From contig NZ_FNTD01000004.1 in NCBI RefSeq assembly GCF_900104815.1, positions 4,976,501 to 5,040,500 of the forward strand: a stretch of DNA of 64,000 bases. Reading direction: 5' to 3'. Below, piece by piece: positions 12,860 through 59,871 of the stretch. How positions within the stretch are numbered: the first letter of the stretch is position 1; the number at the start of each line of letters is the position of its first letter. The translations under genes were made by a program, and so were the position numbers. This DNA comes from Streptomyces misionensis (GTDB lineage: Bacteria; Actinomycetota; Actinomycetes; Streptomycetales; Streptomycetaceae). The notes under the pieces were generated by a model. It worked only from the letters and a program-made list of their open reading frames with translations. It was not told the origin of the DNA and did not search any database.

Positions 12860-13147
12860 GCGCCGCATGGTACCTACGCCGCCGTAAGTCAGGTGTGAGG
12901 GGCGTCCGTCGGTCGGGTGGATGCAAAAAAACCGTCAGTCGAAATCCAGACGAACGTAAAGGAAATGCAAACGCCCCTGGAACCGTGGTCGACCTCACGT
13001 CGCTCACCTGTGAGACCCCCTGGACAGATGGGCACTACAGGCGGATGATCAAATGAGTGCAGTCGGCACCGGATGAGCGATGGCGAAGCGTCCGGGTCGC
13101 AGCCCCCACGGGGCAACAAGGACAAAATCCCTCACTTAGGAGCAACC
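12860..13147. promoter_or_regulatory. Regulatory region between hemolysin-III gene and pckA
   Basis: This 288-bp divergent gap is relatively A/T-rich for the window (an A7 run near 12925; many AA/TA steps to 12970). It carries an imperfect palindrome CTCAC-CT-GTGAG at 13003-13014. AGGAG at 13138-13142 is the pckA ribosome binding site. I cannot place the -10 boxes with confidence. Confidence 0.4.
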
Positions 13148-29999: not shown

Positions 30000-30041
30000 A
30001 AGTTGGTCCAGACCAATTGCGCTGTCAAGAGGTCCAGACCA
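30000..30041 (-). promoter_or_regulatory. Chitinase promoter with two DasR-responsive elements
   Basis: TTGGTCCAGACCAA (30003-30016) and AGGTCCAGACCA (30030-30041) match the TGGTCTAGACCA element bound by DasR and long known as the chitinase-promoter repeat. On the minus strand TTGACA (30028-30023) lies between them and CAACTT (30005-30000) follows after 17 bp. DasR bound at either copy would block RNA polymerase. Confidence 0.8.
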
Positions 30042-30194
30042 AAACCGTCTGCGGTCGTCCGCTCGTGCCCGCCCCCGTCGTGCGCCGGAGCCTCCCCCGG
30101 TCGACCGGTCGACTTGCCCCTGTTTGCAGCGACTTGGCGTGTCGACTTCCACACCGGCTCCACCGACGCTGTTCTCCGGCCACACACCCGTGGA

Positions 30195-30240: not shown

Positions 30241-31101
30241 GTGCCAACAGCCATTGCCGTGACCAGTGCCGACCTGGCACTGCCGCCACAGGACGAACGC
30301 ACCATGCCCGCCGTCGTGCTGGACGGCCTCGACGGGCACCCGCTCGACCACGCGCTCACCGAACTGCACGCCCTCGTCGAGCGGTACGGGCATGTCGTCG
30401 TCGTGTGCTCCGCGGCCACCCCGGAACCCGTCGTGCGCCGCCTGTACACCCTGCGCTCGCTGCTGGAGAGCGACCGCATCGCCCTGTTCCGGCCCGACCT
30501 GCCGCCCCTCGGAGTCGCCGTGCTCGCCCGCCAGTTACGGCAGCTCGCCTCCTGCGACCTCAGTCCCGGGGTGCTCGCCTCCGCCGGGCGGCTGCTCGCC
30601 CACTACATCCACGCCGGCGCCGTCCTCGGCTCCGTCGCCCGGCTGGACCGGGTGCCGGTCGGGCTGAGGGCGCACGCCAAGTCCTGGATGCCCGGCACCC
30701 GGTTCGCCGTACTCGCCCACCCCGAACCCCAGCTCGTCAAGGCCGTGCCCGGCGCCACCCTCAAGGGCCCCGAATTCCCCGCCTGGCTGCTCCTCGCCAA
30801 GGGACAGCTGCCCGCCGACTGGGCCGCCGGGCTCGGCGCCCAGTGGCAGGCCCAGGGCGTGCGCGAGACCCCGCTGCCCGCCGAATCCCGCACCTGGTGG
30901 GGCACCGGCCGCCTGATCGAGTTCTGCGGCCACCTGGACGACCTCTCCGTCCTGTACCAACTGGTCACCTCGGTGCGGCAGTCCACCTGTCACTGGTGCG
31001 GACTCGACGTCATCGGCGACCGCTGCGTCTTCTGCTCCGCCGTCCCGCCCGCCCACGAGCCCGCGACGCCCCGCGCCCTCGAACCACGCACGCCCGCCTG
31101 A
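30241..31101 (+). CDS. Unknown zinc-ribbon protein at the head of the Tad locus, with TTA codon
   Basis: A 286-aa protein from GTG 30241 (GGGGAG upstream). The N-terminal half is an alpha/beta domain (MPAVVLDGLDGHPLDHALTE; YGHVVVVCSAATPEPVVRRL), the middle is helical, and the C-terminus has a zinc ribbon, CHWCGLDVIGDRCVFC. I do not recognise the family. It is the first gene of the pilus run and contains a TTA leucine codon at 30535-30537 (codon 99), which would need the bldA tRNA. It lies 57 bp before cpaB, so it is probably cotranscribed. Confidence 0.7.
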   Translation: MPTAIAVTSADLALPPQDERTMPAVVLDGLDGHPLDHALTELHALVERYGHVVVVCSAATPEPVVRRLYTLRSLLESDRIALFRPDLPPLGVAVLARQLRQLASCDLSPGVLASAGRLLAHYIHAGAVLGSVARLDRVPVGLRAHAKSWMPGTRFAVLAHPEPQLVKAVPGATLKGPEFPAWLLLAKGQLPADWAAGLGAQWQAQGVRETPLPAESRTWWGTGRLIEFCGHLDDLSVLYQLVTSVRQSTCHWCGLDVIGDRCVFCSAVPPAHEPATPRALEPRTPA

Positions 31102-31158
31102 CCCGAGCACACGTCCACATCCCGAACGACCGATTCCCCCAATGAGGTTGCACGGTTC

Positions 31159-31869
31159 ATGAACTCCCGTCAGCGCCGCGGCGTGATACTGCTGATCCTG
31201 TCGGTCCTGTGCGCTCTCGGCGCGTTCGCCGGCGTGCTGTCCGTCGTCCACGACGTGGACTCCAAGGTCGGCCCCGAGGTCACCGCCTACCGGGTGCGCT
31301 CCGACGTCAAGCCGTACACCGCCCTGGACGCGGGGCAGTTCGAGAAGGTCCGGATGCCCAAGCGGTGGCTGTCCGGGACCGCCGTCACCGACCTGCGGCA
31401 GATCCAGGGCAAGACCGCCGTCACCACGCTGCACGCCGGGTCGCTGCTGCAGAGCGACATGATCGTGGACCAGCCCGCCCTCCAGCCGGGGCAGCAAGAG
31501 GTCGCCATCATGATCGACGCGGCGACCGGCGTGGCCGGGAAGATCACCCCCGGGTCGCGGGTCAACGTCTATGCCACCTTCGCCGGGAAGAAGGACGGCG
31601 ACCCGGACCAGTCGAAGATCATCGTGACCGACGCGCGCGTCCTCGACGTCGGCCGGATCACCGCCCTCGACCCCGACGCCGCCAAGAACGGCCCGCAGCA
31701 GCCCAGCGAGGCCGTGCCCATCACCTTCGCGCTGTCCACCCTCGACGCCCAGCGCGTCACCTACGCCGAGTCCTTCGCCCAGCGCGTCCGGCTCGCGCTG
31801 GTCGCGCCCGGCGGCGAGAGCGGCGTGCCGGACAAGGACCGCACCTACGAACTCGCCACGGACAAGTGA
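31159..31869 (+). CDS. cpaB: CpaB/RcpC-like pilus assembly protein (SAF domain)
   Basis: A 236-aa protein with one N-terminal membrane helix (GVILLILSVLCALGAFAGVLSVV, about 8-30) and an extracytoplasmic SAF domain (ITAYRVRSDVKPYTALDAGQ-type sequence, then GKTAVTTLHAGSLLQSDMI). A C-terminal RcpC-like domain carries AIMIDAATGVAGKITPGSRVNVYATF. In Tad systems CpaB/RcpC supports pilus passage and modification. It sits directly before the CpaE-like ATPase (12-bp gap). Confidence 0.85.
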   Translation: MNSRQRRGVILLILSVLCALGAFAGVLSVVHDVDSKVGPEVTAYRVRSDVKPYTALDAGQFEKVRMPKRWLSGTAVTDLRQIQGKTAVTTLHAGSLLQSDMIVDQPALQPGQQEVAIMIDAATGVAGKITPGSRVNVYATFAGKKDGDPDQSKIIVTDARVLDVGRITALDPDAAKNGPQQPSEAVPITFALSTLDAQRVTYAESFAQRVRLALVAPGGESGVPDKDRTYELATDK

Positions 31870-31881
31870 GAGGCGGCCCGC

Positions 31882-33114
31882 ATGCCGACCAGGATCCTCC
31901 CGGCGGGCGCCGACCCGGACGCCGTCCGCTCCCTCGTCACCCTGCTCAGCCAGCTGCCCGATGCCGAGCCGCAGCCGCCGCTGACCGACTCCACCCAGCT
32001 GGTCGACGCCCTCGCCCGGCTCGCCGCGGAGTCCGTGGACGAACTCCCCGAGGTGCTCGTCGTCCACGAACGCATCGGCCCGGTACCGGCGTTGGAGCTG
32101 ATCCGGGAGATCGCCCTGCGCTTCCCGGCCGTCGGCGTCATCCTCGTCACCAGTGACGCGAGCCCCGGCCTGTTCGCCGCCGCCATGGACTCCGGCGCCC
32201 GGGGACTGGTCGCGCTCCCGCTGTCGTACGACGAACTGGCCGGCCGGGTGCAGGCCGTCGCCCAGTGGTCCACGGAGGTACGACGCCACCTCGGGCACGG
32301 CGGGGAGGCGGTGGCCGGCGGCGGGGGCACCGTCGTCACCGTCAGCGGCGCCAAGGGCGGGGTGGGGGCCACGCTCATGGCCGTGCAGCTGGCGCTCGCC
32401 GCACAGGCCTCGGGGCGGCCCACCGCCCTGGTCGACCTCGACCTCCAGTCCGGCGACGTCGCCTCCTACCTGGACATCCAGTTCCGCCGGTCGGTGGCCG
32501 ACCTCGCGGCGATCACCGACATCTCCCCGCGCGTCCTCGCCGACGCCGTCTTCCGCCACGACACCGGGCTGTCCCTGCTGCTCGCGCCCGCCGAGGGCGA
32601 ACGCGGCGAGGAGGTCACCGACCGGGCCGTCCGGCAGATCGTGCGCGCCCTGCGCTCGCGCTACGAGGTCGTCGTCATCGACTGCGGCGCCCAGCTCGGC
32701 GGGGCCGGCGCCGCCGCGGTCGAGACGGCGGACACCGCGCTGCTGGTCACCACGCCGGACGTGATCGCGGTACGCGCCGCCAAGCGGACCGTCCGGATGT
32801 GGGACCGGCTCCAGATCCGCAAGGCCGAGGAGACCACCGCCGTCGTCAACCGGCACAGCCGGCACACCGAGATCCAGCCCGCGCTGGTGCAGCGGATCAC
32901 CGGCACGGGACTCGCGCGCACCGCCGTACCCGCCAACTTCAAGGAGCTCCAGGCGGTGGTGGACGCCGGGCGGGTGCACGAACTCGACGGCCGCAGCACC
33001 GTGAAACAGGCCCTGTGGGCGCTCGCGGGGGAGCTGGGGCTCGCACGGGCGGCCGAGGGCGCGCACCGGGGCCCGGCGCGCGCGGCCGGCGGATTCCGGC
33101 GGCGGAAGGAGTGA
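31882..33114 (+). CDS. CpaE/TadZ-like MinD-family ATPase
   Basis: A 410-aa cytosolic protein. Residues about 1-130 resemble an atypical receiver domain (VLVVHERIGPVPALELIREI), as in TadZ. The deviant Walker A is SGAKGGVGATLMA (K158-T163), followed by DLDLQSGDVASYLDIQFRRSVADL and DCGAQLGGAGA. TadZ/CpaE proteins localise the Tad machine. Gap to the next gene is only 4 bp, so the operon is tight. Confidence 0.87.
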   Translation: MPTRILPAGADPDAVRSLVTLLSQLPDAEPQPPLTDSTQLVDALARLAAESVDELPEVLVVHERIGPVPALELIREIALRFPAVGVILVTSDASPGLFAAAMDSGARGLVALPLSYDELAGRVQAVAQWSTEVRRHLGHGGEAVAGGGGTVVTVSGAKGGVGATLMAVQLALAAQASGRPTALVDLDLQSGDVASYLDIQFRRSVADLAAITDISPRVLADAVFRHDTGLSLLLAPAEGERGEEVTDRAVRQIVRALRSRYEVVVIDCGAQLGGAGAAAVETADTALLVTTPDVIAVRAAKRTVRMWDRLQIRKAEETTAVVNRHSRHTEIQPALVQRITGTGLARTAVPANFKELQAVVDAGRVHELDGRSTVKQALWALAGELGLARAAEGAHRGPARAAGGFRRRKE

Positions 33115-33118
33115 ACCG

Positions 33119-33499
33119 ATGACGCGGCGGGGCGCGGACGAGGGCCAGGTGAGCATCGAGTTCCTCGGGATGACACCGCTGATCCTCCTGACGCTGGTGC
33201 TGATGTGGCAGGCCGTGCTGGTGGGGTACACCTTCACGCTCGCCGGGAACGCCGCCGACGAGGCGGTACGGGCGGGTACGGCGGCGGCGCCGGGCGGTGC
33301 CCGCGAGGCGGCCTGCTCGGCGGCCGGGCGCAAGGACCTGTCGGCGGCGTGGCGCGGGAACGCGGCGGTGCGCTGCGGCGGCTCCGGCTATGTGACGGCC
33401 GATGTCTCCCTCAAGGTCCCGGTGCTCTTCCCCGGCCTGGCCTCCTTCCCCTTCACGGTGCACGGCCACGCGGGCGCGGTGGAAGAGGTGAAGGACTGA
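33119..33499 (+). CDS. TadE-like pseudopilin 1
   Basis: A 126-aa protein with a short N-terminus (TRRGADEGQVSIEFLGMTPL) bearing the TadE pattern G-Q-V-x-x-E-F-L, a transmembrane helix (LGMTPLILLTLVLMWQAVLVGYTF, about 18-41) and an extracytoplasmic domain with cysteines at CSAAGRK and RCGG. GAAGGAG lies 5-10 nt upstream of ATG 33119. It is followed by a second TadE-like gene with a 1-bp gap. Confidence 0.85.
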   Translation: MTRRGADEGQVSIEFLGMTPLILLTLVLMWQAVLVGYTFTLAGNAADEAVRAGTAAAPGGAREAACSAAGRKDLSAAWRGNAAVRCGGSGYVTADVSLKVPVLFPGLASFPFTVHGHAGAVEEVKD

Positions 33500-33500
33500 G

Positions 33501-33842
33501 ATGGCGCACAGGAGAGAACGCGACCGGGGACAAGTCGCCCTGGAATACCTAGGGTTCGTGCCCGTCCTGCTGATCGTGGCGCTCGCCGGCATCCAGCTCG
33601 GAGCCGTCGCCTACGCCGCCGAGCAGGCCGGTACGGCGGCCCGGGCCGGGGCGCGCGCCGCGTCGCTGCGGCAGGACGCCCAGCAGGCGTGCGCCGCGGC
33701 GGTCAGCAGCGGGATCGACGTGCGCTGCTCGGCCGGCGGCGGGGGCGGCGCCGTGACCGTGACCGCCACCGTCCGCATCCCGAAGATCGTCTGGAGCTTC
33801 GGCGACGCCACCAAGTCCGCCACCATGCCGCTCGACCACTGA
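33501..33842 (+). CDS. TadE-like pseudopilin 2
   Basis: A 113-aa relative of the preceding gene. The N-terminus reads RRERDRGQVALEYLGFVPVLLIVALAGIQLGAVAY, with GQVALEYLGF resembling TadE and Flp processing regions, then a short extracellular part with a cysteine pair (QQACAAAV; VRCSAGGG). Two tandem TadE-like proteins suggest a minor-pilin pair. It contains a rare CTA codon (E-Y-L-G). Spacing to tadA is 13 bp. Confidence 0.83.
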   Translation: MAHRRERDRGQVALEYLGFVPVLLIVALAGIQLGAVAYAAEQAGTAARAGARAASLRQDAQQACAAAVSSGIDVRCSAGGGGGAVTVTATVRIPKIVWSFGDATKSATMPLDH

Positions 33843-33855
33843 GGAGCAGGGGACC

Positions 33856-35193
33856 ATGAGCCTGCGGGCACGCATCAGCACTCCGGAGGAGCACGGCAGC
33901 CGGGGCGAGGACGGGCACCTGGTCGCCGCCTACCGGGCCAAGCTGCTGGAGGAGATCGACCTCGCGGAGATGGGCTCGCTGGCCGCCGCCGACCGGCGCA
34001 GCCGGCTGGAGCGGGTGCTCGGCCACATCATCAGCCGCGAGGGACCGGTGCTGTCGACAGTCGAGCGCTCCCAGCTGATCCGGCGGGTGGTGGACGAGGC
34101 GCTGGGCCTCGGCATCCTCGAACCCCTGCTGGAGGACGCCTCGATCACCGAGATCATGGTCAACGGCCCCAACGCCGTCTTCGTGGAGCGGTCCGGCCGG
34201 GTGGAGCAGCTGCCGCTGCGGTTCGTCTCCACCGACCAGCTGATGCAGACCATCGAGCGGATCGTGTCGACCGTCAACCGCCGGGTGGACGAGTCGAATC
34301 CGATGGTCGACGCCCGGCTGCCGTCCGGCGAGCGCGTCAACGTCATCATCCCGCCGCTGTCGCTGACCGGTCCCGTCCTCACCATCCGCCGCTTCCCGCG
34401 CTCCTTCACCCTCCAGGAGCTGATCGGGCTGGGCTCGCTGGCCGAGCCGATGGTGTACCTGATGGCGGGGCTGGTGCGGGCGAAGTTCAACATCATCGTC
34501 TCCGGCGCGACCGGCACCGGCAAGACCACCCTCCTCAACGCCCTGTCCGGGCTCATCCCGCCGCACGAGCGCATCATCACCATCGAGGACTCCGCCGAAC
34601 TCCAGCTCCAGCAGAGCCATGTGGTCCGGCTGGAGTCCCGGCCGCCCAACGTCGAGGGCAAGGGCCAGGTCACCATCCGCGACCTGGTCCGCAACTCGCT
34701 GCGGATGCGGCCCGACCGGATCGTGGTCGGCGAGGTACGCGGCGGCGAGTCCCTCGACATGCTCCAGGCGATGTCCACCGGCCACGACGGCTCGCTGGCC
34801 ACCGTGCACGCCAACAGCGCCGAGGACGCCCTCACCCGGTTGCAGACCCTCGCCTCCATGTCCGACGTGGAGGTGCCCTTCGTCGCCCTGCACGACCAGA
34901 TCAACAGCGCGGTCGACGTGATCGTCCAGCTCACCCGGTTCGCCGACGGCGCCCGCCGCATCACCGAGATCGCACTGCTCGACAGCCACGGCGGGGAGCC
35001 GTACCGGCTGGCCACCGTCGCCCGCTTCGACGCCCGGCCGATGACCGCGGACGGCCGGGTGTACGGCGACTTCGCCTACTTCCCGCTGCCCCGCCGCACC
35101 GCCGACCGCCTCCACATGGCGAGCCAGCCCGTCCCCCAGGCCTTCGGCGTCGCCCGCACCGCCGACCAGCTCGCCACCCGAGAAGCCAGGTAG
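33856..35193 (+). CDS. tadA: TadA/CpaF secretion ATPase
   Basis: A 445-aa hexameric motor of the type II/IV secretion superfamily that powers Flp pilus assembly. The N-terminal domain includes LLEDASITEIMVNGPNAVFVER (about 91-112). Walker A is GATGTGKT at 217-224, the Asp box is in the ITIEDSAELQL segment, His boxes are in TGHDGSLATVHANSAEDALTRL, and Walker B-like sequence is RPDRIVVGEVRGGE. All catalytic motifs are intact and the length is normal. It is 8 bp before tadB. Confidence 0.95.
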   Translation: MSLRARISTPEEHGSRGEDGHLVAAYRAKLLEEIDLAEMGSLAAADRRSRLERVLGHIISREGPVLSTVERSQLIRRVVDEALGLGILEPLLEDASITEIMVNGPNAVFVERSGRVEQLPLRFVSTDQLMQTIERIVSTVNRRVDESNPMVDARLPSGERVNVIIPPLSLTGPVLTIRRFPRSFTLQELIGLGSLAEPMVYLMAGLVRAKFNIIVSGATGTGKTTLLNALSGLIPPHERIITIEDSAELQLQQSHVVRLESRPPNVEGKGQVTIRDLVRNSLRMRPDRIVVGEVRGGESLDMLQAMSTGHDGSLATVHANSAEDALTRLQTLASMSDVEVPFVALHDQINSAVDVIVQLTRFADGARRITEIALLDSHGGEPYRLATVARFDARPMTADGRVYGDFAYFPLPRRTADRLHMASQPVPQAFGVARTADQLATREAR

Positions 35194-35201
35194 GCCCCCA
35201 C

Positions 35202-36149
35202 ATGGAACTCCACACCCTCGTCCAGCTCACCCTCGGGGCGACGCTGCTGAGCTGCGTCCTCGCGGTGGCCGGCGTGCACAGCCACGCCCGGGGCCGGGCC
35301 CGGCGCGCCGCCCTCGTGGACCGCCTCTCGCATACCGGCCCGCCCCCCGCCGCCCCCGGCCGCAGGCGGTACTTCCGCGACCTCGACCGGCGGCTGCGCC
35401 GTACCCGCCCCGGCCGCAGGCTCGAACGGCGCCTGGCCACCACCGGACTGGACGTCACACCGGGCGAGTTCTTCGTCGCCATGCTGGTCACGGTCGCCGC
35501 GCTCTGGCTGATCGGGCAGGCCGCGCTCGCCCCCTTCTTCGGGCCGATCGCCGGGCTGCTGGGCGTGTGGGCGGCGGTGCAGTTCCTCAACTGGCAGCGG
35601 CAGCGCCGCATCGAGCGGTTCATCGGCCAGCTCCCCGAACTCGCCCGCATCCTGGCCAACGCCACCCAGGCCGGGCTCGCCCTGCGCACCGCGATCGGGA
35701 TGGCCGCCGAGGAACTGGAGGCCCCGGCCGGCGAGGAACTGGCCAAGGTCGCCGACCAGTTGTCCGTCGGACACTCCCTGGACGACGCCCTCGGCGAACT
35801 CGCCGACCGGCTGCCCTCGCGCGAGCTGGTCGTCCTCGTCACCACGCTGGTCCTCGCGAACCGGGCCGGCGGCCAGGTCGTCTCCGCCCTGCGCAACCTC
35901 ACCGAGACCCTGGAGGAACGCAAGGAGACCCGGCGCGAGATCCGCACCCAGCTGTCCCAGGTGACCATGACGTCGTACGCCGTGCCCGCGCTCGGCGTCG
36001 GCGCGCTGTTCCTGATGAACGGCGTCCGCGGCGGCGCCCTGGCCCGGATGACCGGCTCCCCGGCCGGCCAGATCTGCGTGCTGATCGCCTTCGCGCTGTA
36101 CGCCGTCGGATTCGTCCTCATCCGCCGGCTCAGCCGCATCGACGTCTGA
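35202..36149 (+). CDS. tadB: TadB-like inner-membrane platform protein
   Basis: A 315-aa protein with a T2SSF domain. An N-terminal helix (VQLTLGATLLSCVLAVAGV) and a central helical pair (EFFVAMLVTVAALWLIGQAAL) precede the cytosolic platform region (IERFIGQLPELARILANATQAGLALRTAIGMAAEEL). The C-terminal helices are YAVPALGVGALFLMN and ICVLIAFALYAVGFVLI. It works with TadC as the platform on which TadA acts. Confidence 0.9.
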   Translation: MELHTLVQLTLGATLLSCVLAVAGVHSHARGRARRAALVDRLSHTGPPPAAPGRRRYFRDLDRRLRRTRPGRRLERRLATTGLDVTPGEFFVAMLVTVAALWLIGQAALAPFFGPIAGLLGVWAAVQFLNWQRQRRIERFIGQLPELARILANATQAGLALRTAIGMAAEELEAPAGEELAKVADQLSVGHSLDDALGELADRLPSRELVVLVTTLVLANRAGGQVVSALRNLTETLEERKETRREIRTQLSQVTMTSYAVPALGVGALFLMNGVRGGALARMTGSPAGQICVLIAFALYAVGFVLIRRLSRIDV

Positions 36150-36160
36150 GGAGACACGCC

Positions 36161-37048
36161 ATGGCCCTGCTGCTCGCGCTGCTGGCGGGCGTCGCCGTCT
36201 GGGGGATCTTCACCGGCGTGCGCATGTACCGCGCCGACGCCAAGCTCCCCGGCGACCTCGCCATCGCCCTGGAGGTGGGCGCCACCCGCACCGGCGCCGT
36301 GGGCTCCGTCATCGACCGCATGGGCATGCGCTACGCCCCGCTGGTGCTGCGCCTGATGGGCCCCCGCCTGGTCGCCAGGTACCGGCGCCGGATCGACCTC
36401 GCGGGCAACCCCGGCGGCCTGACCATCGACCGCTACGCCGCCCGCCGCGCGGTCTACGGCGTCCTCGGCGGGGTCGGCTGCCTGGTGTTCCTGCTGCGCG
36501 GCCAGTGGTTCGTGGCCGTACTGCTGCTGCTCTTCGGCGCGTTCTGGACCGAGGTCGGCATCTGGTCGGCGATCCGGGTGCGCAAGGACGTCATCGAGCG
36601 GACCCTGCCCGACTTCCTGGACGTGCTGGCGGTCGTGGTCAGCGCCGGGCTCGGCTTCCGGCAGGCCCTGGACCGTGTCGCCTCCCGCTACGAGGGTCCC
36701 TGGGCCGACGAACTGCGCATCACCCTGCGCCAGATGGACCTCGGCATGAGCCGCCGCCAGGCCTTCGCGGAGCTGCGCCGGCGTAACGACTCCGAGCAGG
36801 TCGCCATGTTCGTCACCGCGCTCCAGCAGGGCGAGGAACTGGGTGCGCCGATCGTGGACACCCTCGTGTCGCTGGCCAAGGACATGCGCCGCACCGACGC
36901 GCAGAACGCCCGCCGCAAGGCCGCCCGCGCGGTGCCCAAGGCCACGCTGATGATCACCACGTTCATGGTCCCGGCGACGATGCTGCTGCTGGGCGCGGGA
37001 CTGCTGCTGGGTTCCGGGGTGGACTTCGGATCGCTCACGGGGAAGTGA
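36161..37048 (+). CDS. tadC: TadC-like inner-membrane platform protein
   Basis: A 295-aa partner of TadB with the same T2SSF fold. Membrane segments are LLALLAGVAVWGIFTGV (N-terminus), VLGGVGCLVFLLRGQWFVAVLLLLF (about 105-130) and ATLMITTFMVPATMLLLGAGLLL (C-terminus), with the platform signature IERTLPDFLDVLAVVVSAGLGFRQALDRVA. ATG 36161 is used, with GAGGAG 9 nt upstream. Its stop overlaps the next gene's GTG by 4 bp, so the histidine kinase is translationally coupled to the pilus genes. Confidence 0.9.
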   Translation: MALLLALLAGVAVWGIFTGVRMYRADAKLPGDLAIALEVGATRTGAVGSVIDRMGMRYAPLVLRLMGPRLVARYRRRIDLAGNPGGLTIDRYAARRAVYGVLGGVGCLVFLLRGQWFVAVLLLLFGAFWTEVGIWSAIRVRKDVIERTLPDFLDVLAVVVSAGLGFRQALDRVASRYEGPWADELRITLRQMDLGMSRRQAFAELRRRNDSEQVAMFVTALQQGEELGAPIVDTLVSLAKDMRRTDAQNARRKAARAVPKATLMITTFMVPATMLLLGAGLLLGSGVDFGSLTGK

Positions 37049-38382
37049 AGGGCGTGACGGCCGGGCGCGTCGAGCGGTTGAGGGGGGTGACGAGGAGGTG
37101 TGTCACGGGACTTCTGGGACCGGCGGGGCGGGCGGACGAGCCGCCGTCGGAGCGATTGCAGGTCCGGGCGTTGCAGGCGCTGTGCCGGCAGGTGTTCGGC
37201 TTCCGGCTGGCGATGATCGTGGTGGCGGCCCCCGCGGCCCTGCTGAACGCCGCGCCCGGCCTGGGCGTCCGGCTGGTCGGTGCGGCCGTGATCGTCACCT
37301 TCATGGTGTCCTACGTCCTCTTCCGCGACTGGGAGCGCTTCGGCCCCCTGCTGCTGCGCCACCCCGGCCTGCTGGCCGCCGACACCCTCTTCGGCTCCCT
37401 CCTGCTGGTCTCGGCGGGCCCGGACACCACCCTCGCCTACGTCGGCGTCTGCACCCCGCTGCTGGCCGGCCTGCTCTACAGCTGGCGCGGGGCGGCCTGC
37501 TTCGCCTCCCTCCAGGCGCTGATCCTGTTCGTCGTCCACCTCACCCTGAAGGCCGGCCGCGGCGCCTCCGTGGCCGAGGCCCTGCTGCTGCCCGGCCTGT
37601 GCGTCGTCGCCGGTGCCATGGGCTCGACCCTGCGCAAACTGATGCTCCGCTTCGGTGCCGCCACCGAGGCGCTGACGGCGGTACGGGCGCGGCTCGCGGC
37701 GGCGGAGGCGGTGAGCGCCGAACGGGCCCGCCTCGCCCGGGAGATGCACGACTCCTTGGCCAAGACCCTGTACGGGGTCGCGCTCGCCGCCGACGGCCTC
37801 GCGGCCACCGCCTCGGCCGCCGACCCCGACCCGGACCGGCTGCGGGAACAGGCCGAACTGGTCTCCCGTTCGGCCCGCCGGGCGGCGGCGGAGTCCCGGG
37901 AACTGCTGACGGACCTGCGCCGCGAACCGGCCGGCTCGGCCCCGCCCTTCTGGTCGGAACTGGCGGGCGTGGTGAGCGACTTCGCCGCCCGTACGACCCT
38001 CAAGGTGACCTGCGCCTGCCCGGACCCCCCGGCCACCCTGCCCCCGCTGTCCGCCGACCGCTCCCGCGCCCTGCTGTCCATCGCCACGGAGGCCCTGGAG
38101 AACGCCCAGCGGCACGCGGAGGCGACCCAGGTGGACGTGCGGGTCGCCGTCGACGGCGGGTTGCTGTGCCTGACCGTCCACGACGACGGCCGCGGCCTCC
38201 CGCCCGGCACCACGCTCGAACACCTGCGTTCCTCCGGCCACTTCGGCCTGCTCGGCATGGTCGAACGGGCCGCCCAGGCGGGCGCCCGCATCCGTGTCGG
38301 CCGCGGCACCCACACCCGGGGCACGGAGGTACGCGTCGAACTCCCCCTGCCCGCCGCCCCGCCCCTGAAGGCCAGCCCCTGA
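37045..38382 (+). CDS. NarL-type sensor histidine kinase in the Tad locus
   Basis: A 445-aa kinase. Five or six N-terminal membrane helices (about 53-195) form a membrane-embedded sensor with hardly any extracellular loop. The HisKA_3 box has phospho-acceptor H235 in RLAREMHDSLAKTLYGVALAADGL. The HATPase_c domain carries the N box EALENAQRHAEATQV, G1 HDDGRGLPPG and G2 FGLLGMVERA. All motifs are intact. GTG 37045 overlaps the tadC stop. The cognate regulator follows by 13 bp. The signal is unknown; membrane or envelope state is plausible. Confidence 0.9.
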   Translation: MKGVTAGRVERLRGVTRRCVTGLLGPAGRADEPPSERLQVRALQALCRQVFGFRLAMIVVAAPAALLNAAPGLGVRLVGAAVIVTFMVSYVLFRDWERFGPLLLRHPGLLAADTLFGSLLLVSAGPDTTLAYVGVCTPLLAGLLYSWRGAACFASLQALILFVVHLTLKAGRGASVAEALLLPGLCVVAGAMGSTLRKLMLRFGAATEALTAVRARLAAAEAVSAERARLAREMHDSLAKTLYGVALAADGLAATASAADPDPDRLREQAELVSRSARRAAAESRELLTDLRREPAGSAPPFWSELAGVVSDFAARTTLKVTCACPDPPATLPPLSADRSRALLSIATEALENAQRHAEATQVDVRVAVDGGLLCLTVHDDGRGLPPGTTLEHLRSSGHFGLLGMVERAAQAGARIRVGRGTHTRGTEVRVELPLPAAPPLKASP

Positions 38383-38395
38383 AAGGAGGCACACC

Positions 38396-39130
38396 ATGCG
38401 CCGGCACGTGTTCCCGCCACCGGCCCGGCTGCGGCTGCTGGTGGCCGACGACAACCCCGTGGTCCGCGCGGGCCTGACCGCGCTGCTCGCGGACCGCGCG
38501 GACACCACCGTGGTGGCGGAGGCGGTGGACGGCCGCGAGGCGTACGAGGCCGCGCTGCGGCACCGCCCGGACGTCGTCCTCCTCGACGTCCGCATGCCCG
38601 GGGTCGACGGCCTGGCGGCTCTGCCGCACCTGCTGCGCCTCGCGCCCGTCATGATGCTCACCTACAGCCATGACTCGCGGACGGTGCGGGAGGCGCTGCG
38701 CCTGGGGGCGGGGGGATACCTGGTGCACGGCGAGTTCACCACCGAGCAGCTGGTACGGGCCGTACGGGACGTCCACGAGGGCAGGCCGCACGTCACGCCG
38801 GGGGCCGCCAGGGCGTTACTCGACGAACTGCGGGGGAGTGCACCTGCACACACGGAACCTCAACTCCCCGCAATCGACGTCCAAAATACACTCCCTCCTC
38901 CTTCACAATTGCAATCCACTATGGGACAGTCGTCCCGGTCACGGTTCCGGCTGAGTGTCAGGGAGGCGGAGATCATGGACCTCATCGCGTCCGGCATGAC
39001 CAACCAGCAGATCGCCGCCGCCTGCTTCATCAGCGAGAAGACGGTCAAGAACCACATCAACCGCATCTTCGCCAAGCTCCAGGCCACGACCAGATCCCAG
39101 GCCGCCGCGAAATGGCTGGGGGTGGCCTGA
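38396..39130 (+). CDS. NarL/LuxR-type response regulator with TTA codon
   Basis: A 244-aa regulator. The receiver domain (about 12-125) has acidic pocket D18/D19 and phospho-acceptor D64 (VVLLDVRMPGVDG). The LuxR-type helix-turn-helix is about 180-240 (LSVREAEIMDLIASGMTNQQ, then EKTVKNHINRIFAKL). The linker is unusually long and encoded by A/T-rich DNA (about 38840-38930). A TTA codon at 38816-38818 (codon 141, ARALLDEL) makes translation depend on the bldA leucyl-tRNA. AAGGAGG lies upstream of ATG 38396. Likely target: the pilus promoters. Confidence 0.92.
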   Translation: MRRHVFPPPARLRLLVADDNPVVRAGLTALLADRADTTVVAEAVDGREAYEAALRHRPDVVLLDVRMPGVDGLAALPHLLRLAPVMMLTYSHDSRTVREALRLGAGGYLVHGEFTTEQLVRAVRDVHEGRPHVTPGAARALLDELRGSAPAHTEPQLPAIDVQNTLPPPSQLQSTMGQSSRSRFRLSVREAEIMDLIASGMTNQQIAAACFISEKTVKNHINRIFAKLQATTRSQAAAKWLGVA

Positions 39131-39255: not shown

Positions 39256-39453
39256 GTGAGCAGATGGTTCAACACCACCGTGACGTATCTGATGACCCGC
39301 GCCGCCCGCGGCGACAGGGGGCAGACGGCGGTGGAGTACCTCGGCATCATCGCGGTGGTCGTGGCGATCGTGCTGGCGATCACCGGGACGAGCATCGGGC
39401 AGACGATCTACGACGCGATCACCTCGAAGATCTCCGAGGTCACCGGCGGCTGA
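39256..39453 (+). CDS. Flp-type major pilin
   Basis: A 65-aa prepilin from GTG 39256, with GGAGGGG 6 nt upstream. The type IV-like N-terminus is SRWFNTTVTYLMTRAARGDR, then GQTAVEYLGIIAVVVAIVLAI. The Gly before Q is the expected cleavage site, followed by the E-Y pair of Flp pilins and the hydrophobic helix. The C-terminal stub (TSIGQTIYDAITSKISEVTGG) is short, as in Flp pilins. Small size, own ribosome site and the preceding hairpin fit a highly expressed subunit. No prepilin peptidase gene is in the window. Confidence 0.85.
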   Translation: MSRWFNTTVTYLMTRAARGDRGQTAVEYLGIIAVVVAIVLAITGTSIGQTIYDAITSKISEVTGG

Positions 39454-40043
39454 CCCGGCCGGGCCGGGACGCAGGGCAGGCCTTCCCCATCTATCTCACG
39501 GTGGTGGCGGGCCTGCTCTTTCTCGCGTTCGCCTACCTCGCGGTCGGCCAGGCCGCGGTGAACCGGGGCGGCGCCCAGACGGCCGCCGACGCCTCGGCGC
39601 TCGCGGCGGCCCAGGACGTGCGGGACCAACTCGCGGGCCAGTGGCTGAAGGTGCTGCGGGACCCGGCGAAGTGGCAGGACGTCTTCGACGGCCGGACGCC
39701 GGTCCTCGGCGACCCCTGCGCCCGGGCCGGGGAACTCGCGGCCCGCAACGACGCCCGGCTGACCGCGTGCTCCCCGCCGGGCCCGCTGGAGTACCGGACC
39801 GAGGTGCGCACGGACAAGTCCGTCGGCCGCTCGGTCGTGCCCGGGACCGAGAAGTTCAGGTCGACCGCCTCCGCCACCGCCGAGATCGAACCGCTGTGCA
39901 CCTTCGAGCTCCCGGCCGAGGGCGCCGCCAAGGCTCCGCTGCCCCGGCTCACCTGCAAGGACAGGGTGTGGGACCTCGAACCGGACGATCCGTCGGGACT
40001 CCCCGGGCCCGACGACCTCTTCGACGTCCATCTGGCCGACTGA
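39450..40043 (+). CDS. TadG-like pilus protein, apparently started by CTG
   Basis: A 197-aa protein with an N-terminal membrane helix (AGQAFPIYLTVVAGLLFLAFAYLAVGQAAVNRGGAQTAADAAA-like, helix about 11-33) and the TadG/TadE pattern GGAQTAADASALAAAQD. The extracytoplasmic part has cysteines (GDPCARAG; LTACSPPG; PLCTFEL; LTCKD). No ATG, GTG or TTG lies between the flp gene and the membrane helix in this frame. The CTG at 39450 overlapping the flp stop as CTGA is the best start, implying coupled translation. Related genes usually begin with GTG at this spot. Confidence 0.75.
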   Translation: MTRPGRDAGQAFPIYLTVVAGLLFLAFAYLAVGQAAVNRGGAQTAADASALAAAQDVRDQLAGQWLKVLRDPAKWQDVFDGRTPVLGDPCARAGELAARNDARLTACSPPGPLEYRTEVRTDKSVGRSVVPGTEKFRSTASATAEIEPLCTFELPAEGAAKAPLPRLTCKDRVWDLEPDDPSGLPGPDDLFDVHLAD

Positions 40044-40073: not shown

Positions 40074-40652
40074 ATGATGAGCATGCGGTTCACCGCGAGA
40101 GCCCGCAGAGGGACGGCCGTACTGGCCGTCGTGGCCGCTCTGGCCGTCGGCGCGGCCGGCTGCGGCGGCGGTGGCGACGACGGCAAGCGGCCGGACCACT
40201 CGGCATCCGCCTCCACGACGACCGGGTCGGACCCCGGCACCCAGGAGGGCCGGTCGGACCAGCCGCTGGCCGAACTGCGGGGCTCCGACGGGCTCGGCCT
40301 CCAGATCACTTCCGCGCAGCGGGACTCCGGCGGATTCGTCACCGTCGACGGCACCCTGAAGAACGACGGCTCCCAGAGCGTCGTCATCCCCTCCGCGCTG
40401 AGCGGCAACGAGACCGAGATCGTCAAGAACGGCCGGTCACTGGGCGGGGCCACCCTGGTCGACCCGAAGGGCAAGAAGCGGTACTACGTGCTGCGGGACA
40501 CCGAGGGCCGGCCGCTGACCACCACCGGCTTCTCGACCCTGCGGGCCGGTGACACCCTCGCCGTCTTCATGCAGTTCCCGGCGCCACCCGTGGACGAGGT
40601 GGAGTTCCAGCTGCCCACCTTCTCCTCCGCCACCCTCCACATCTCCGGTTGA
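40074..40652 (+). CDS. Lipoprotein of the Tad locus
   Basis: A 192-aa (or 189-aa from ATG 40083) secreted lipoprotein. The signal peptide ends in the lipobox AVGAAGC (Cys near residue 30), then a Ser/Thr-rich linker and a beta-sandwich domain (LGLQITSAQRDSGGFVTVDGTLKNDGSQSVVIP ... LRAGDTLAVFMQF) resembling DUF4352-like immunoglobulin folds. It follows the TadG-like gene by 30 bp and precedes the OmpA-domain gene by 9 bp. Possibly an envelope anchor or chaperone for the pilus; inferred from position. Confidence 0.78.
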   Translation: MMSMRFTARARRGTAVLAVVAALAVGAAGCGGGGDDGKRPDHSASASTTTGSDPGTQEGRSDQPLAELRGSDGLGLQITSAQRDSGGFVTVDGTLKNDGSQSVVIPSALSGNETEIVKNGRSLGGATLVDPKGKKRYYVLRDTEGRPLTTTGFSTLRAGDTLAVFMQFPAPPVDEVEFQLPTFSSATLHISG

Positions 40653-40661
40653 GGGGCCGCC

Positions 40662-41285
40662 GTGACCACCCGACCCCGTCTCGCGCTCGTCCTCGCGGCC
40701 GCGGCCCTCCTGCTCGGCGCGGTGCCCCCTTCCGCGCAGGCCACCGGCACGGACCCCACCGAGCCCCCCGACACCGCGCCGTCGGCCGCCGCCCCGGTGA
40801 GGATCGACCCCCACGACCCGGACCTGAAGCTCCCGGAGGGCGCCACGCTGGCCACGCCCAAGGTGCTGGACATCAAGTCGGTGGTGGAGGACCAGAGCGG
40901 GGACGAACGCCGTGAGGACACCAACGCGGACGTCACCTTCGCCCTCCAGGCCGAAGTCCTCTTCGGCAAGGACAGCTCGTCGCTCGGCGCCGACGCCAAG
41001 GCCCGCATCGCCGCGATCGCCGACGAGATCCGCAGAGAGCACGCCACCCAGGTCCGCGTCTTCGGCTTCACCGACGACCTCGGCTCCTCGGCCCACGGCA
41101 TCCTGCTCTCCCGGCAGCGCGCCAACACCGTCCAGTCGGTCCTCGCCCAGGACCTCGGCAGCCCCGACATCACCTTCGAGGTCCGCGGCTACGGCGAGCA
41201 GTACCCGATCGCCGACAACTCCACGGAGGAGGGCCGCCGCAAGAACCGCCGGGTGGAGGTGTCCTTCCCGCGCACCGCGCGGTGA
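40662..41285 (+). CDS. Secreted OmpA-domain protein of the Tad locus
   Basis: A 207-aa exported protein. Signal peptide is residues 1-27 (LALVLAAAALLLGAVPPSAQA). After a Pro/Thr linker comes an OmpA-like domain (about 90-205): ALQAEVLFGKDSSSLGADAK, VRVFGFTDDLGSSAHGILLSRQRANTVQSVLA, VRGYGEQYPIADNSTEEGRRKNRRVEVSF, with the Asp and Arg positions that bind diaminopimelate of peptidoglycan. In a monoderm this implies wall attachment. It ends the pilus run. GTG 40662. Confidence 0.87.
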   Translation: MTTRPRLALVLAAAALLLGAVPPSAQATGTDPTEPPDTAPSAAAPVRIDPHDPDLKLPEGATLATPKVLDIKSVVEDQSGDERREDTNADVTFALQAEVLFGKDSSSLGADAKARIAAIADEIRREHATQVRVFGFTDDLGSSAHGILLSRQRANTVQSVLAQDLGSPDITFEVRGYGEQYPIADNSTEEGRRKNRRVEVSFPRTAR

Positions 41286-46631: not shown

Positions 46632-46967
46632 TTCGTGCGTGGAGCTTTCCGGAATTCCCTTGGGCCAAACGGGATGTGAGCTTTCACACTCAACTCGGAA
46701 TTGCCACTCGGCGTCCGGTTACGGCAGAGTCTCAGTCCTGTCAGGCCCCGCATACGACACAGCCGTACCCCCAGCGGTCCGGCACCACAAACGCACCAAC
46801 TCCATAGAGTTCGTCGTATGCCGCCCGAGCACCACGCGGCGCTCCCCGCAGGGGGAGTTGCCCACCGGGCCCGCGCCTCCCGTGACCCCGCAGTTGGGAG
46901 GCCAGTGCCAGGGGCACGATTGCGTCCGCCAGGGTCACCGAAGCGGGCGATGCTGGAAGGAAACCGT
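46632..46967 (+). promoter_or_regulatory. Leader region of the SLT transglycosylase gene
   Basis: This 336-bp leader contains TAGAGT at 46805-46810, exactly 7 nt before ATG 46818, which is in frame with the downstream gene. It either starts a leaderless longer reading (50 extra residues) or is just the promoter with a 150-nt leader. Small hairpins CTCCCC-gca-GGGGAG-like (near 46850) and GTGCC-AGG-GGCAC (near 46905) follow. Wall-hydrolase leaders in actinobacteria often hold c-di-AMP riboswitches, but I do not find that motif here. Confidence 0.4.
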
Positions 46968-57759: not shown

Positions 57760-59871
57760 TCAGCCGCGGTGCAGCTCGAACCAGACCACCTTGCCGGTGC
57801 TCAGCCGGGTCGCGCCCCAGCGCCGGGCCATCTTGTTGACCAGGTACAGGCCCCGGCCGCCCTCGTCCGTGGCGCGGGCCTGCCGCAGCCGGGGCAGCTG
57901 CGGCACGTCGTCACCGACCTCGCAGCGCAGCACATGGGTGCGCAGCAGCCGCAGCGTCACCGGCCGGGACGCGTACCGCACGGCGTTCGTCACGACCTCG
58001 CTGACCAGCAGCTCCACCGAGTCGGTGAGGTCCTCCATGTCCCAGCGGGCGAGCGCGCGCCGGGCCAGCCGGCGGGCCTGGCCGGGGGCCGTCTCCTCCG
58101 GCTCCAGCGTCCAGTACGCCACATCGCTCGGCGCGATCCCGTCGAAACGGGCGGCGAGCAGCGCGATGTCGTCGTCCCGGTCGCCCGGGCCGAGCATGTC
58201 GAGGACCTCGTCGCACAGGGCCTCCAGCGGCGGCGGATGGTCCGGGCCGGTCAGCTGCGCGGTGGCGGCGAGCCGTTCGCGCAGCTGCTCTATGCCCGTC
58301 CACACGTCCCGCAGCCGGGACTCCACCAGGCCGTCGGTGTACAGCAGCAGCGTGGCCCCGGCGGGCGCGTCCAGCTCGACCGCCTCGAAGTCCACCCCGC
58401 CGACGCCGATCGGCGCGCCCGGCGGCACCCGCAGCACCTCGGCCCGCCCGCCCAGGTGCAGCAGCACGGGCGGCGGATGGCCGGCGTTGGCGATGGTGAT
58501 GCGGTGCGTGACCGGGTCGTAGACCGCGTACAGACACGTCGCCATGCGGTCGGTGCCGAGCCGCTGCGCCTGCTCGTCCAGGTGGTGCAGGACCTCCTGC
58601 GGCGGCAGATCGAGACCGGCCAGGGTCTGCGCGGTGGTGCGCAGCTGGCCCATGATGGCGGCCGAGGTCATGGAGTGGCCCATGACGTCGCCGACCACCA
58701 GCGCGACCCGGCTGCCGGGCAGCGGGATCGCGTCGTACCAGTCGCCGCCCACCCGCGCGGTCTCCGCCGCGGGCAGGTACCGCGAGGCGAGCCGCACGCC
58801 CGTCGGGCGGGGCAGGGTCTCGGGCAGCATGGTGCGCTGCAACTCGTCGGCGATGTAGGCCTCACGGCCGTACAGCACCGCCTTGTCGATGCCGAGCGCG
58901 CTGTGCGTGGCCAGCTGGGCCGCCACCAGCAGGTCGTCCGTCTCGAACGCCGGCCGCTCGGGGCGGCGCAGGAACAGGGCCGCGCCGATCACCCGGCGCC
59001 GGCCGCGCAGCGGCGCGAGGATCGCGTGCTGCCCGGACGGTACGAGCGCCTCCGCGCCCTCGCCCAGCAGCTCGGGCAGCGCGGCCCGGGCGGCCGGCGC
59101 GTCCGCGAACACCGGGCGCACCCCGCGCAGCACCTCGTTGAGCGCGTCGCCGGGCCGCACCTCGCACAGCTCCAGCGTCAGCGACGACAGCTCCGCCAGC
59201 GCGATCGGCTCCGGCTCCGGCTCGAACGCCTGGGGCAGCAGGACCCCGTCGGTGTCCCGCTCCTCCGGGATGCGGTCGGTACGGCGCAGCCGCAGCACCA
59301 CCGGTCCGGTGGGCCGTTCGTCGCCGACCGGCAGCGGGTCGCGCAGATAGACCAGGATCGCGTCCGAGAAGGTCGGCACCGTGGCCCGGCACAGACCCAT
59401 CACGATCTCGTCCAGGTCCAGACCGCGGGCGATCCGCCGGGTGGCCGCGCCCACGAACCTGAGCCGGTCCCCGTCACGCCGCATCGGCATGGGCCGCCCC
59501 GGCGGCAGGCCCCGCCCGGTACGGCGCTCCGGGCCGCCCGGCGCCCGCTCCTGGTCGGCGCCGGGCTGCGGCGGAATGGCCTCCGGTGCGGGGCGCGGCC
59601 GATGGGCCGCGCCGGCGTCCGCGGTGGCGGGCTGGGAGTGCTCCGGGCCGTTGACTGGGGGCTCCTTCCCCTTGCCGTCCTTTGCCTGGCCACAGGGGGT
59701 GGCCGTCCCCGGTCCCGAGGGCGTCCCGTCGGCCCGTGCCTGCACGGGTAAGGCGGGGGTGCCGACCGGTTCCGGGGCACGCACAAGCGCCCCGCGGCCC
59801 TCCGCGGGGTCGGCGCCCGGCTGAGGGCGCTCGAAGGAGGTGGGCTGCTCCGTCACGCGTGTCGCATCCAT
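57760..59871 (-). CDS. GAF - SpoIIE phosphatase - anti-sigma kinase-like protein
   Basis: A 703-aa signalling protein. After a disordered Pro-rich N-terminus (about 1-130) comes a GAF-like sensor (about 135-330, RRIARGLDLDEIVMGLC), the PP2C/SpoIIE phosphatase (about 350-555: VGGDWYDAIPLPGSRVALVVGDVMGHSMTSA; LLLYTDGLVESR; GDRDDDIALL) and a HATPase_c domain (about 580-700: LLVSEVVTNAVRYA; GGRGLYLVNKMARRWG). Such proteins control partner-switching of sigma factors via anti-anti-sigma proteins; no partner is in the window. The ATG 59871 ribosome site is weak. Confidence 0.92.
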   Translation of the reverse strand: MDATRVTEQPTSFERPQPGADPAEGRGALVRAPEPVGTPALPVQARADGTPSGPGTATPCGQAKDGKGKEPPVNGPEHSQPATADAGAAHRPRPAPEAIPPQPGADQERAPGGPERRTGRGLPPGRPMPMRRDGDRLRFVGAATRRIARGLDLDEIVMGLCRATVPTFSDAILVYLRDPLPVGDERPTGPVVLRLRRTDRIPEERDTDGVLLPQAFEPEPEPIALAELSSLTLELCEVRPGDALNEVLRGVRPVFADAPAARAALPELLGEGAEALVPSGQHAILAPLRGRRRVIGAALFLRRPERPAFETDDLLVAAQLATHSALGIDKAVLYGREAYIADELQRTMLPETLPRPTGVRLASRYLPAAETARVGGDWYDAIPLPGSRVALVVGDVMGHSMTSAAIMGQLRTTAQTLAGLDLPPQEVLHHLDEQAQRLGTDRMATCLYAVYDPVTHRITIANAGHPPPVLLHLGGRAEVLRVPPGAPIGVGGVDFEAVELDAPAGATLLLYTDGLVESRLRDVWTGIEQLRERLAATAQLTGPDHPPPLEALCDEVLDMLGPGDRDDDIALLAARFDGIAPSDVAYWTLEPEETAPGQARRLARRALARWDMEDLTDSVELLVSEVVTNAVRYASRPVTLRLLRTHVLRCEVGDDVPQLPRLRQARATDEGGRGLYLVNKMARRWGATRLSTGKVVWFELHRG

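Follow-up and report, generated by a model that had tools for sequence, protein, structure and literature searches.

In the first gene of a Tad/Flp pilus locus, a TTA leucine codon at one position, codon 99, seems to have been gained repeatedly within the genus Streptomyces, which suggests that it is under selection. The locus lies in a 64,000-nt stretch of the Streptomyces misionensis genome (GCF_900104815.1, NZ_FNTD01000004.1:4,976,501-5,040,500, forward strand), hereafter the window. Its first gene, which we call the head gene, and a response regulator gene further downstream each carry an in-frame TTA, namely codon 99 (30535-30537) of the open reading frame 30241-31101 (+) and codon 141 (38816-38818) of the open reading frame 38396-39130 (+). 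The original prediction, made from the sequence of the window, had named these two codons; their positions and frames were borne out, and both lie inside real genes of the Tad locus. Should the head gene start at ATG 30304 instead of GTG 30241, its TTA would become codon 78 and remain inside the gene. We propose that the head gene, and in this strain the regulator as well, are gated by the bldA tRNA, with codon 99 as a recurrent gate, a proposal whose chances we regard as evenly balanced.

Translation of UUA is reported to require the bldA tRNA (PMC4255298, PMC2000904), and as in other TTA genes of the bldA type the codons described here are in frame within conserved coding sequence. The prerequisite for such a dependence is given, since ARAGORN identifies a tRNA-Leu(UAA) gene in the genome. 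A query with the bldA anticodon arm returned nine matches with at most three mismatches, the only exact one being at this tRNA-Leu(UAA).

Distribution of TTA codons in orthologous loci

Head-gene matches were obtained in 196 other genomes, of which we surveyed the best 149, the 47 weaker ones being outside the sample. Some loci end at contig ends, and counts over whole open reading frames may include occasional codons beyond the gene proper. A TTA anywhere in the head gene was present in 38 of the 149 other Streptomyces loci, while the regulator carried one in 16 of 109 and the sensor kinase encoded next to it in 6 of 104. For the seven genes of the pilus machine the share was 0-3.5% each (CpaB 1/145, TadZ 2/145, TadE 5/143, second TadE 2/143, CpaF 0/140, TadB 0/140, TadC 2/140), and the genes at the locus end gave 0/125 (Flp), 2/136 (TadG-like), 2/135 (lipoprotein) and 0/124 (OmpA). 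At least one of head gene, kinase and regulator contained TTA in 40 of the 104 loci possessing all three, and a machine gene did so in 9 of the 140 loci with all seven machine genes. Counted per leucine codon, TTA made up 11 of 32,559 in the machine genes, 19 of 2752 in the regulator and 13 of 5720 in the head gene when codon 99 is left out. The concentration of TTA in head gene and regulator, which had been noted from this one window, is thus found again in the relatives, but the two codons themselves are a minority state there (26/149 and 4/102).

At codon 99 the 149 loci, the window excluded, read TTA in 26, TTG in 53, CTG in 46, CTC in 16, CTA in 7 and ATG in 1 case. When the 481 leucine columns containing 30 or more leucine codons are ranked by their share of TTA, codon 99 comes first (26/148) and regulator codon 141 second (4/85); the remaining aligned positions add up to 39 TTAs in about 52,600 leucine codons. 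A second set, composed of the best-scoring new loci of another sample, contained TTA at codon 99 in 5 of 24 further genomes, and 12 of 80 named loci, which may overlap with the first set, have it as well.

Apparent recurrent gain at codon 99

Gains and losses were traced by parsimony on one tree of five Tad proteins and one of the head gene without codon 99, the window's own tip being included. On the tree of the Tad proteins 12 gains and five to seven losses of TTA are reconstructed at codon 99, whichever of the four possible root states is assumed, and the head gene's own tree gave 16 gains, each count referring to one traced reconstruction. Over 480 leucine columns, 462 showed no gain and 14 showed one. 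Codon 99 ranked first and codon 141 second, the latter with five gains or, at equal cost, one gain and four losses to TTG; this ranking is slightly biased because the window was picked for having these codons and contributes its own tip. At head-gene codon 99 TTA is thus kept or regained above expectation.

Two simple sequence effects were considered as its source and rejected. A column rich in TTG does not as such produce TTA: the TTG-rich control columns tadB 187 (48 TTG), head-gene 102 (39 TTG, n=149) and cpaF 119 (28 TTG) hold no TTA at all. The ratio of TTA to TTG is 26:53 at codon 99 versus 53:1426 elsewhere (Fisher p 2e-16; the Fisher tests take no account of relatedness, which the parsimony counts do). 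The second candidate was the CAG codon preceding codon 99. Across the Tad genes of the 149 loci, leucine following CAG is encoded by TTG in 226 of 2352 cases (9.6%) versus 1125 of 48,530 (2.3%) in other contexts, and some of the TTG at codon 99 can be ascribed to the preceding CAG. However, outside codon 99 a leucine after CAG is TTA in none of 2413 cases, 61 of which are also followed by CGN, as opposed to 26 of 144 at codon 99 when the position is defined by its QLRQL motif. As an observation in its own right, the roughly fourfold excess of TTG after CAG might mean that CAGCTG is avoided or prone to mutation.

The regulator codon

Codon 141 is TTA in 4 of 102 alignable regulators, which makes it the second of the 480 columns, and is limited to one clade. 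It belongs to the linker between the receiver and DNA-binding domains, where 16 of the 19 regulator TTAs are found (the linker bounds are approximate) and where codon use is relaxed, with a GC content at third codon positions of 0.71 compared with 0.91 in the domains. In the linker the TTA:TTG ratio exceeds both that of the domains (Fisher p 0.003) and that of the four genes at the locus end (3 TTA to 495 TTG). TTA at codon 99 is not associated with the kinase-regulator pair, occurring in 18 of 109 loci that have the regulator and in 6 of 30 that do not.

Published data from S. coelicolor

For S. coelicolor we assigned genes by gene order. Since chiA is SCO5003 (PMC4398421) and a GH18 chitinase gene lies divergent from the head gene in the window, SCO5004 is the expected counterpart of the head gene. 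The entry for SCO5006 is that of an orphan response regulator with ATPase output, no kinase-regulator pair being shown nearby in the part of the source covered (PMC9739842), which fits TadZ in a locus devoid of this pair. Such a locus occurs in a relative that we take to be S. rubrogriseus, which lacks the kinase-regulator pair, reads TTG at codon 99 and is free of TTA throughout the locus. SCO5013-5015, described as three secreted proteins that are reportedly absent from S. lividans (PMC3017869), fit the TadG-like, lipoprotein and OmpA genes, so that SCO5013 probably belongs to the Tad locus.

The SCO5013 transcript was reported to be lower in a bldA mutant (p 0.048), as was that of SCO4994, which by the order used here lies outside the locus (PMC2000904). 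In differentiated mycelium SCO5006 and SCO5008 were up, with log2 values of 0.4 and 0.6 on solid and 1.3 and 2.0 in liquid medium (PMC3897704); the same source labels SCO5008 a putative septum site-determining protein, and our gene order would make it TadE-like. For a developmental timing of the pilus, these published data are suggestive at best.

Points that weigh against bldA gating

Several of our observations speak against the proposed gating. A TTA at codon 99 is absent from 123 of the 149 sampled head genes (83%) and one at codon 141 from 98 of the 102 alignable regulators; absence from nearly all orthologues, by which the original prediction had proposed to be judged, does not apply to codon 99 and nearly applies to codon 141. 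Other, equally short reconstructions may exchange gains for losses, and only the traced ones were counted. Not TTA alone but rare leucine codons in general are enriched at codon 99 (TTG 53 and CTA 7 of 148). The regulator TTA, being clade-limited and in a loose linker, makes a weaker case than codon 99. Moreover, 30 of the 139 loci that reach past TadC lack the kinase-regulator pair, so that control of both ends by bldA does not hold as a general design. If SCO5013 belongs to the locus, its bldA dependence would be indirect, because the close relative mentioned above has no TTA in the locus.

The clustering of TTA codons in a single genome is weak by itself. Sampling the same chromosome in twenty 20-kb pieces gave 340 called genes, 6 of which (1.8%) contained TTA, and at this background rate the probability of at least two TTA genes in the 14-gene locus is 0.025 and that of at least three among the 61 genes of the window 0.09. 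It is the orthologue survey and not the single-genome count that makes the TTA pattern more than chance.

Alternative explanations

The TTA codons of the locus might be incidental, with any developmental control exerted by AdpA or other regulators or by DasR at the promoter region shared with the chitinase gene, which we consider rather unlikely. The indirect bldA dependence that SCO5013 would have is in keeping with it, and DasR was reported to bind SCO5003-SCO5004 in vivo (PMC4398421). In addition, of 149 sequences preceding the head gene (the window included), 95 contain predicted DasR-type (dre-like) sites, versus 6 of 1687 control stretches, and therefore chitin or N-acetylglucosamine sensing may also control the pilus. 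This explanation leaves the recurrence at codon 99 unaccounted for, and the window has no more matches to the AdpA consensus than chance would give (7 versus 7.8 expected).

We judge it unlikely that no selection is involved at all and that head gene and regulator, being expressed late or weakly, merely tolerate TTAs arising at random. The relaxed linker of the regulator with its share of TTAs speaks for such a tolerance, as does the fact that regulatory genes are described as an often TTA-enriched class (PMC10327506). Yet the machine genes, which are probably co-transcribed and would be equally free to drift, hold the 11 TTAs in 32,559 leucine codons given above, and the TadG-like and lipoprotein genes, which are similarly rich in TTG (8% and 12% of leucine codons), have at most 0.1% TTA. 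Moreover, drift would hardly yield 12 gains at one codon and none at 462 of 480 columns.

An improbable alternative is that any leucine codon that is rare or slowly translated is favoured at position 99, for instance to let translation pause while the head protein folds, and that bldA timing is a by-product: TTG, TTA and CTA (53, 26 and 7 of 148) together far exceed the other columns combined, the CTA:CTG ratio is raised as well (7:42), Leu99 is invariant in an alignment of 38 head proteins and the nearby codon 102 is also TTG-rich, but CTT, likewise rare, does not occur at codon 99 (0/148), the TTA:TTG ratio stands out against all other positions including the TTA-free codon 102, and a halo of TTG and CTA would also be expected from the loss of TTA. 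The frequent occurrence of these one-step neighbours of TTA fits both its decay and a general preference for rare codons.

Proposed gate and relation to known bldA-dependent systems

According to the bldA gating that we favour, UUA at head-gene codon 99 would be read well only by the bldA tRNA, and translation of the full-length head protein would lag until this tRNA is available; in this strain and its clade, the second UUA would gate the response regulator too. Because the machine genes are left free of TTA, the gate would lie at the lead protein and the regulator, both of which (the regulator in this clade) would appear late by analogy with known TTA genes. In the genus, the codon 99 gate would have been gained, and lost via the one-step neighbour TTG, many times over. 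More tentatively, and with the chances somewhat against it, codon 99 may be an evolutionary on/off switch in which an invariant leucine toggles between TTA and TTG or CTG, the regulator codon being a second, lineage-specific gate. The codons, the tRNA gene, the distribution of TTA and its recurrence are taken from the sequence data, whereas we infer three things, namely a need for bldA in the translation of these genes, selection acting on just this need and a pilus production that follows development; a developmental timing of the pilus is plausible.

AdpA (bldH) and other bldA-controlled genes resemble the two genes described here in having TTA in frame in a gene of regulatory or auxiliary function. 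In adpA, as in the regulator here, the codon falls between two segments that code for domains, but it is reported from all streptomycetes analyzed (PMC4255298), in contrast to 26 of 149 and 4 of 102 for codons 99 and 141. A TTA-bearing regulator can render neighbouring genes bldA-dependent, as exemplified by the LuxR-family regulator SCO4263, which controls the bldA-dependent SCO4251-4253 operon and, as in the Tad locus, is a locus-linked TTA regulator. For SCO4263 the dependence was demonstrated by deletion, S1 mapping and proteomics (PMC2000904), whereas for the pilus locus it is predicted from sequence; unlike in the SCO4263 system, the head gene carries a TTA as well.

Among the matches listed from the open-licence literature, as far as their text was covered, no paper links bldA or TTA codons to the Streptomyces Tad pilus, and one that deals with Streptomyces, bldA and pili mentions pili only generally in the part covered (PMC4391728). 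Gating of an auxiliary gene by TTA is well known, and the locus described here, together with the repeated occurrence at a single codon, seems to be an addition to this known kind. If the gating is real, the Tad pilus would join the bldA-gated processes, and related species differing by one synonymous codon would provide a natural experiment.

Organization of the locus and the head protein

The genes for TadA ATPase, TadB/TadC, TadZ, CpaB and TadE occur together (Table 1), the TadB- and TadC-like products having T2SSF domains, and as in other Tad/Flp (type IVc) pilus loci CpaB, TadZ, TadE, TadA, TadB, TadC, Flp-like and TadG-like genes form one array. In comparison with such loci, the head gene, the two-component pair and the lipoprotein and OmpA genes are additional. 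Because the intergenic gaps between 30241 and 39130 do not exceed 57 bases and include one overlap, a single operon from the head gene through the regulator is likely; a 125-base gap precedes the pilin gene. A scan for promoters and terminators found none.

Table 1. Features of the Tad locus and its surroundings in the window
Feature	Position	Strand	Basis or remark
Predicted DasR-type (dre-like) sites, two, between divergent chitinase and head genes	30003-30016, 30029-30042	.	sequence match
Head gene, 286 aa, GTG start (alternative ATG 30304)	30241..31101	+	no Pfam/NCBIfam family
TTA, head-gene codon 99, recurrent TTA site	30535..30537	+	orthologue counts, inferred gains
CpaB/RcpC	31159..31869	+	PF16976 4.3e-22; TIGR03177
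TadZ/CpaE-like ATPase	31882..33114	+	CpaE_hom_Actino E 5.5e-23, under its cut-off
TadE-like protein	33119..33499	+	PF07811
Second TadE-like protein	33501..33842	+	PF07811
TadA/CpaF ATPase	33856..35193	+	PF00437 3.1e-75
TadB-like membrane protein	35202..36149	+	PF00482
TadC-like membrane protein	36161..37048	+	PF00482, PF19359
Sensor histidine kinase, start uncertain	37045..38382	+	HisKA_3, HATPase_c
NarL-type response regulator	38396..39130	+	Response_reg 15-123, GerE 186-237
TTA, regulator codon 141, interdomain linker	38816..38818	+	domain bounds
Flp-type pilin	39256..39453	+	PF04964 (Flp_Fap) E 1.7e-5, score 25.0, under curated cut-off 32.2
TadE/G-like pilus protein, start uncertain	39453..40043	+	PF13400
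Probable lipoprotein, locus end	40074..40652	+	no Pfam family; sequence
OmpA-family protein, locus end	40662..41285	+	PF00691
Third TTA, codon 41 of SpoIIE-family phosphatase (57760-59871, -), outside Tad locus	59749..59751	-	open reading frame

The head gene is present in 197 of 199 Streptomyces genomes and, in a comparison across the order, in 102 of 104 genomes of the same genus (the own genome included in both counts) and in none of 15 others; within this sample the family is restricted to Streptomyces. Profile searches gave no Pfam or NCBIfam match for the protein, and no relative of solved structure was found by sequence. A structural model with a mean pLDDT of 71 had its best PDB match with a DegV-type protein (E 0.022, TM-score 0.38), and a fold assignment was dropped since no PDB match reached an E of 0.001 or better. 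Four conserved cysteines near the C-terminus resemble a metal site. As a guess, the head protein might be a Streptomyces-specific factor in pilus assembly or control.

A third TTA gene in the window

For a census of the window, all 44 TTA trinucleotides on both strands were assigned to frames, with genes called by a codon model that assigned TTA a score of zero. Three of the 61 called genes contain TTA, so that the original prediction erred in counting only two in-frame TTAs; the third is located in the gene of a SpoIIE-family phosphatase on the reverse strand. Being the only other coding TTA of the window, it does not amount to the many nearby TTA codons that would have spoken against a special role of the Tad locus.

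The phosphatase was examined at 30 loci (the window's included) obtained from a search of 41 genomes. In 18 of the other 29 the alignment begins at residue 1 or 2; TTA stands at the same GALPVQAR-type motif in 15 of them (one assigned by eye in a shifted alignment) and is lacking in three. The remaining 11, whose N-termini differ or do not align, lack TTA at the place of codon 41, some having it elsewhere. This TTA is thus better conserved than either of those in the Tad locus. A survey of 213 species reported 11 TTA codons as conserved, the criterion being that half or more of the Streptomyces species with the gene in question have the codon; among them is that of a SpoIIE-family phosphatase at nucleotides 127-129 (codon 43; PMC10327506). 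The window phosphatase matches this gene type, and its codon 41 is probably the same codon. Both Tad-locus codons fall under the half-of-species threshold in the present sample, and the main text of the survey does not contain the terms pilus or Tad; if the proposed gating is real, surveys with such a threshold would overlook sites that are repeatedly gained and lost.

Two further TTAs were rejected as non-coding. The one at 46719 precedes the called start, 46998, of an SLT-domain protein, and the one at 13136 lies within TTAGGAG upstream of GTG 13148, the probable start of a phosphoenolpyruvate carboxykinase gene. The latter (13136-13138) overlaps the apparent ribosome-binding site of that gene, and a start call at 13073 would turn it into a false TTA gene.

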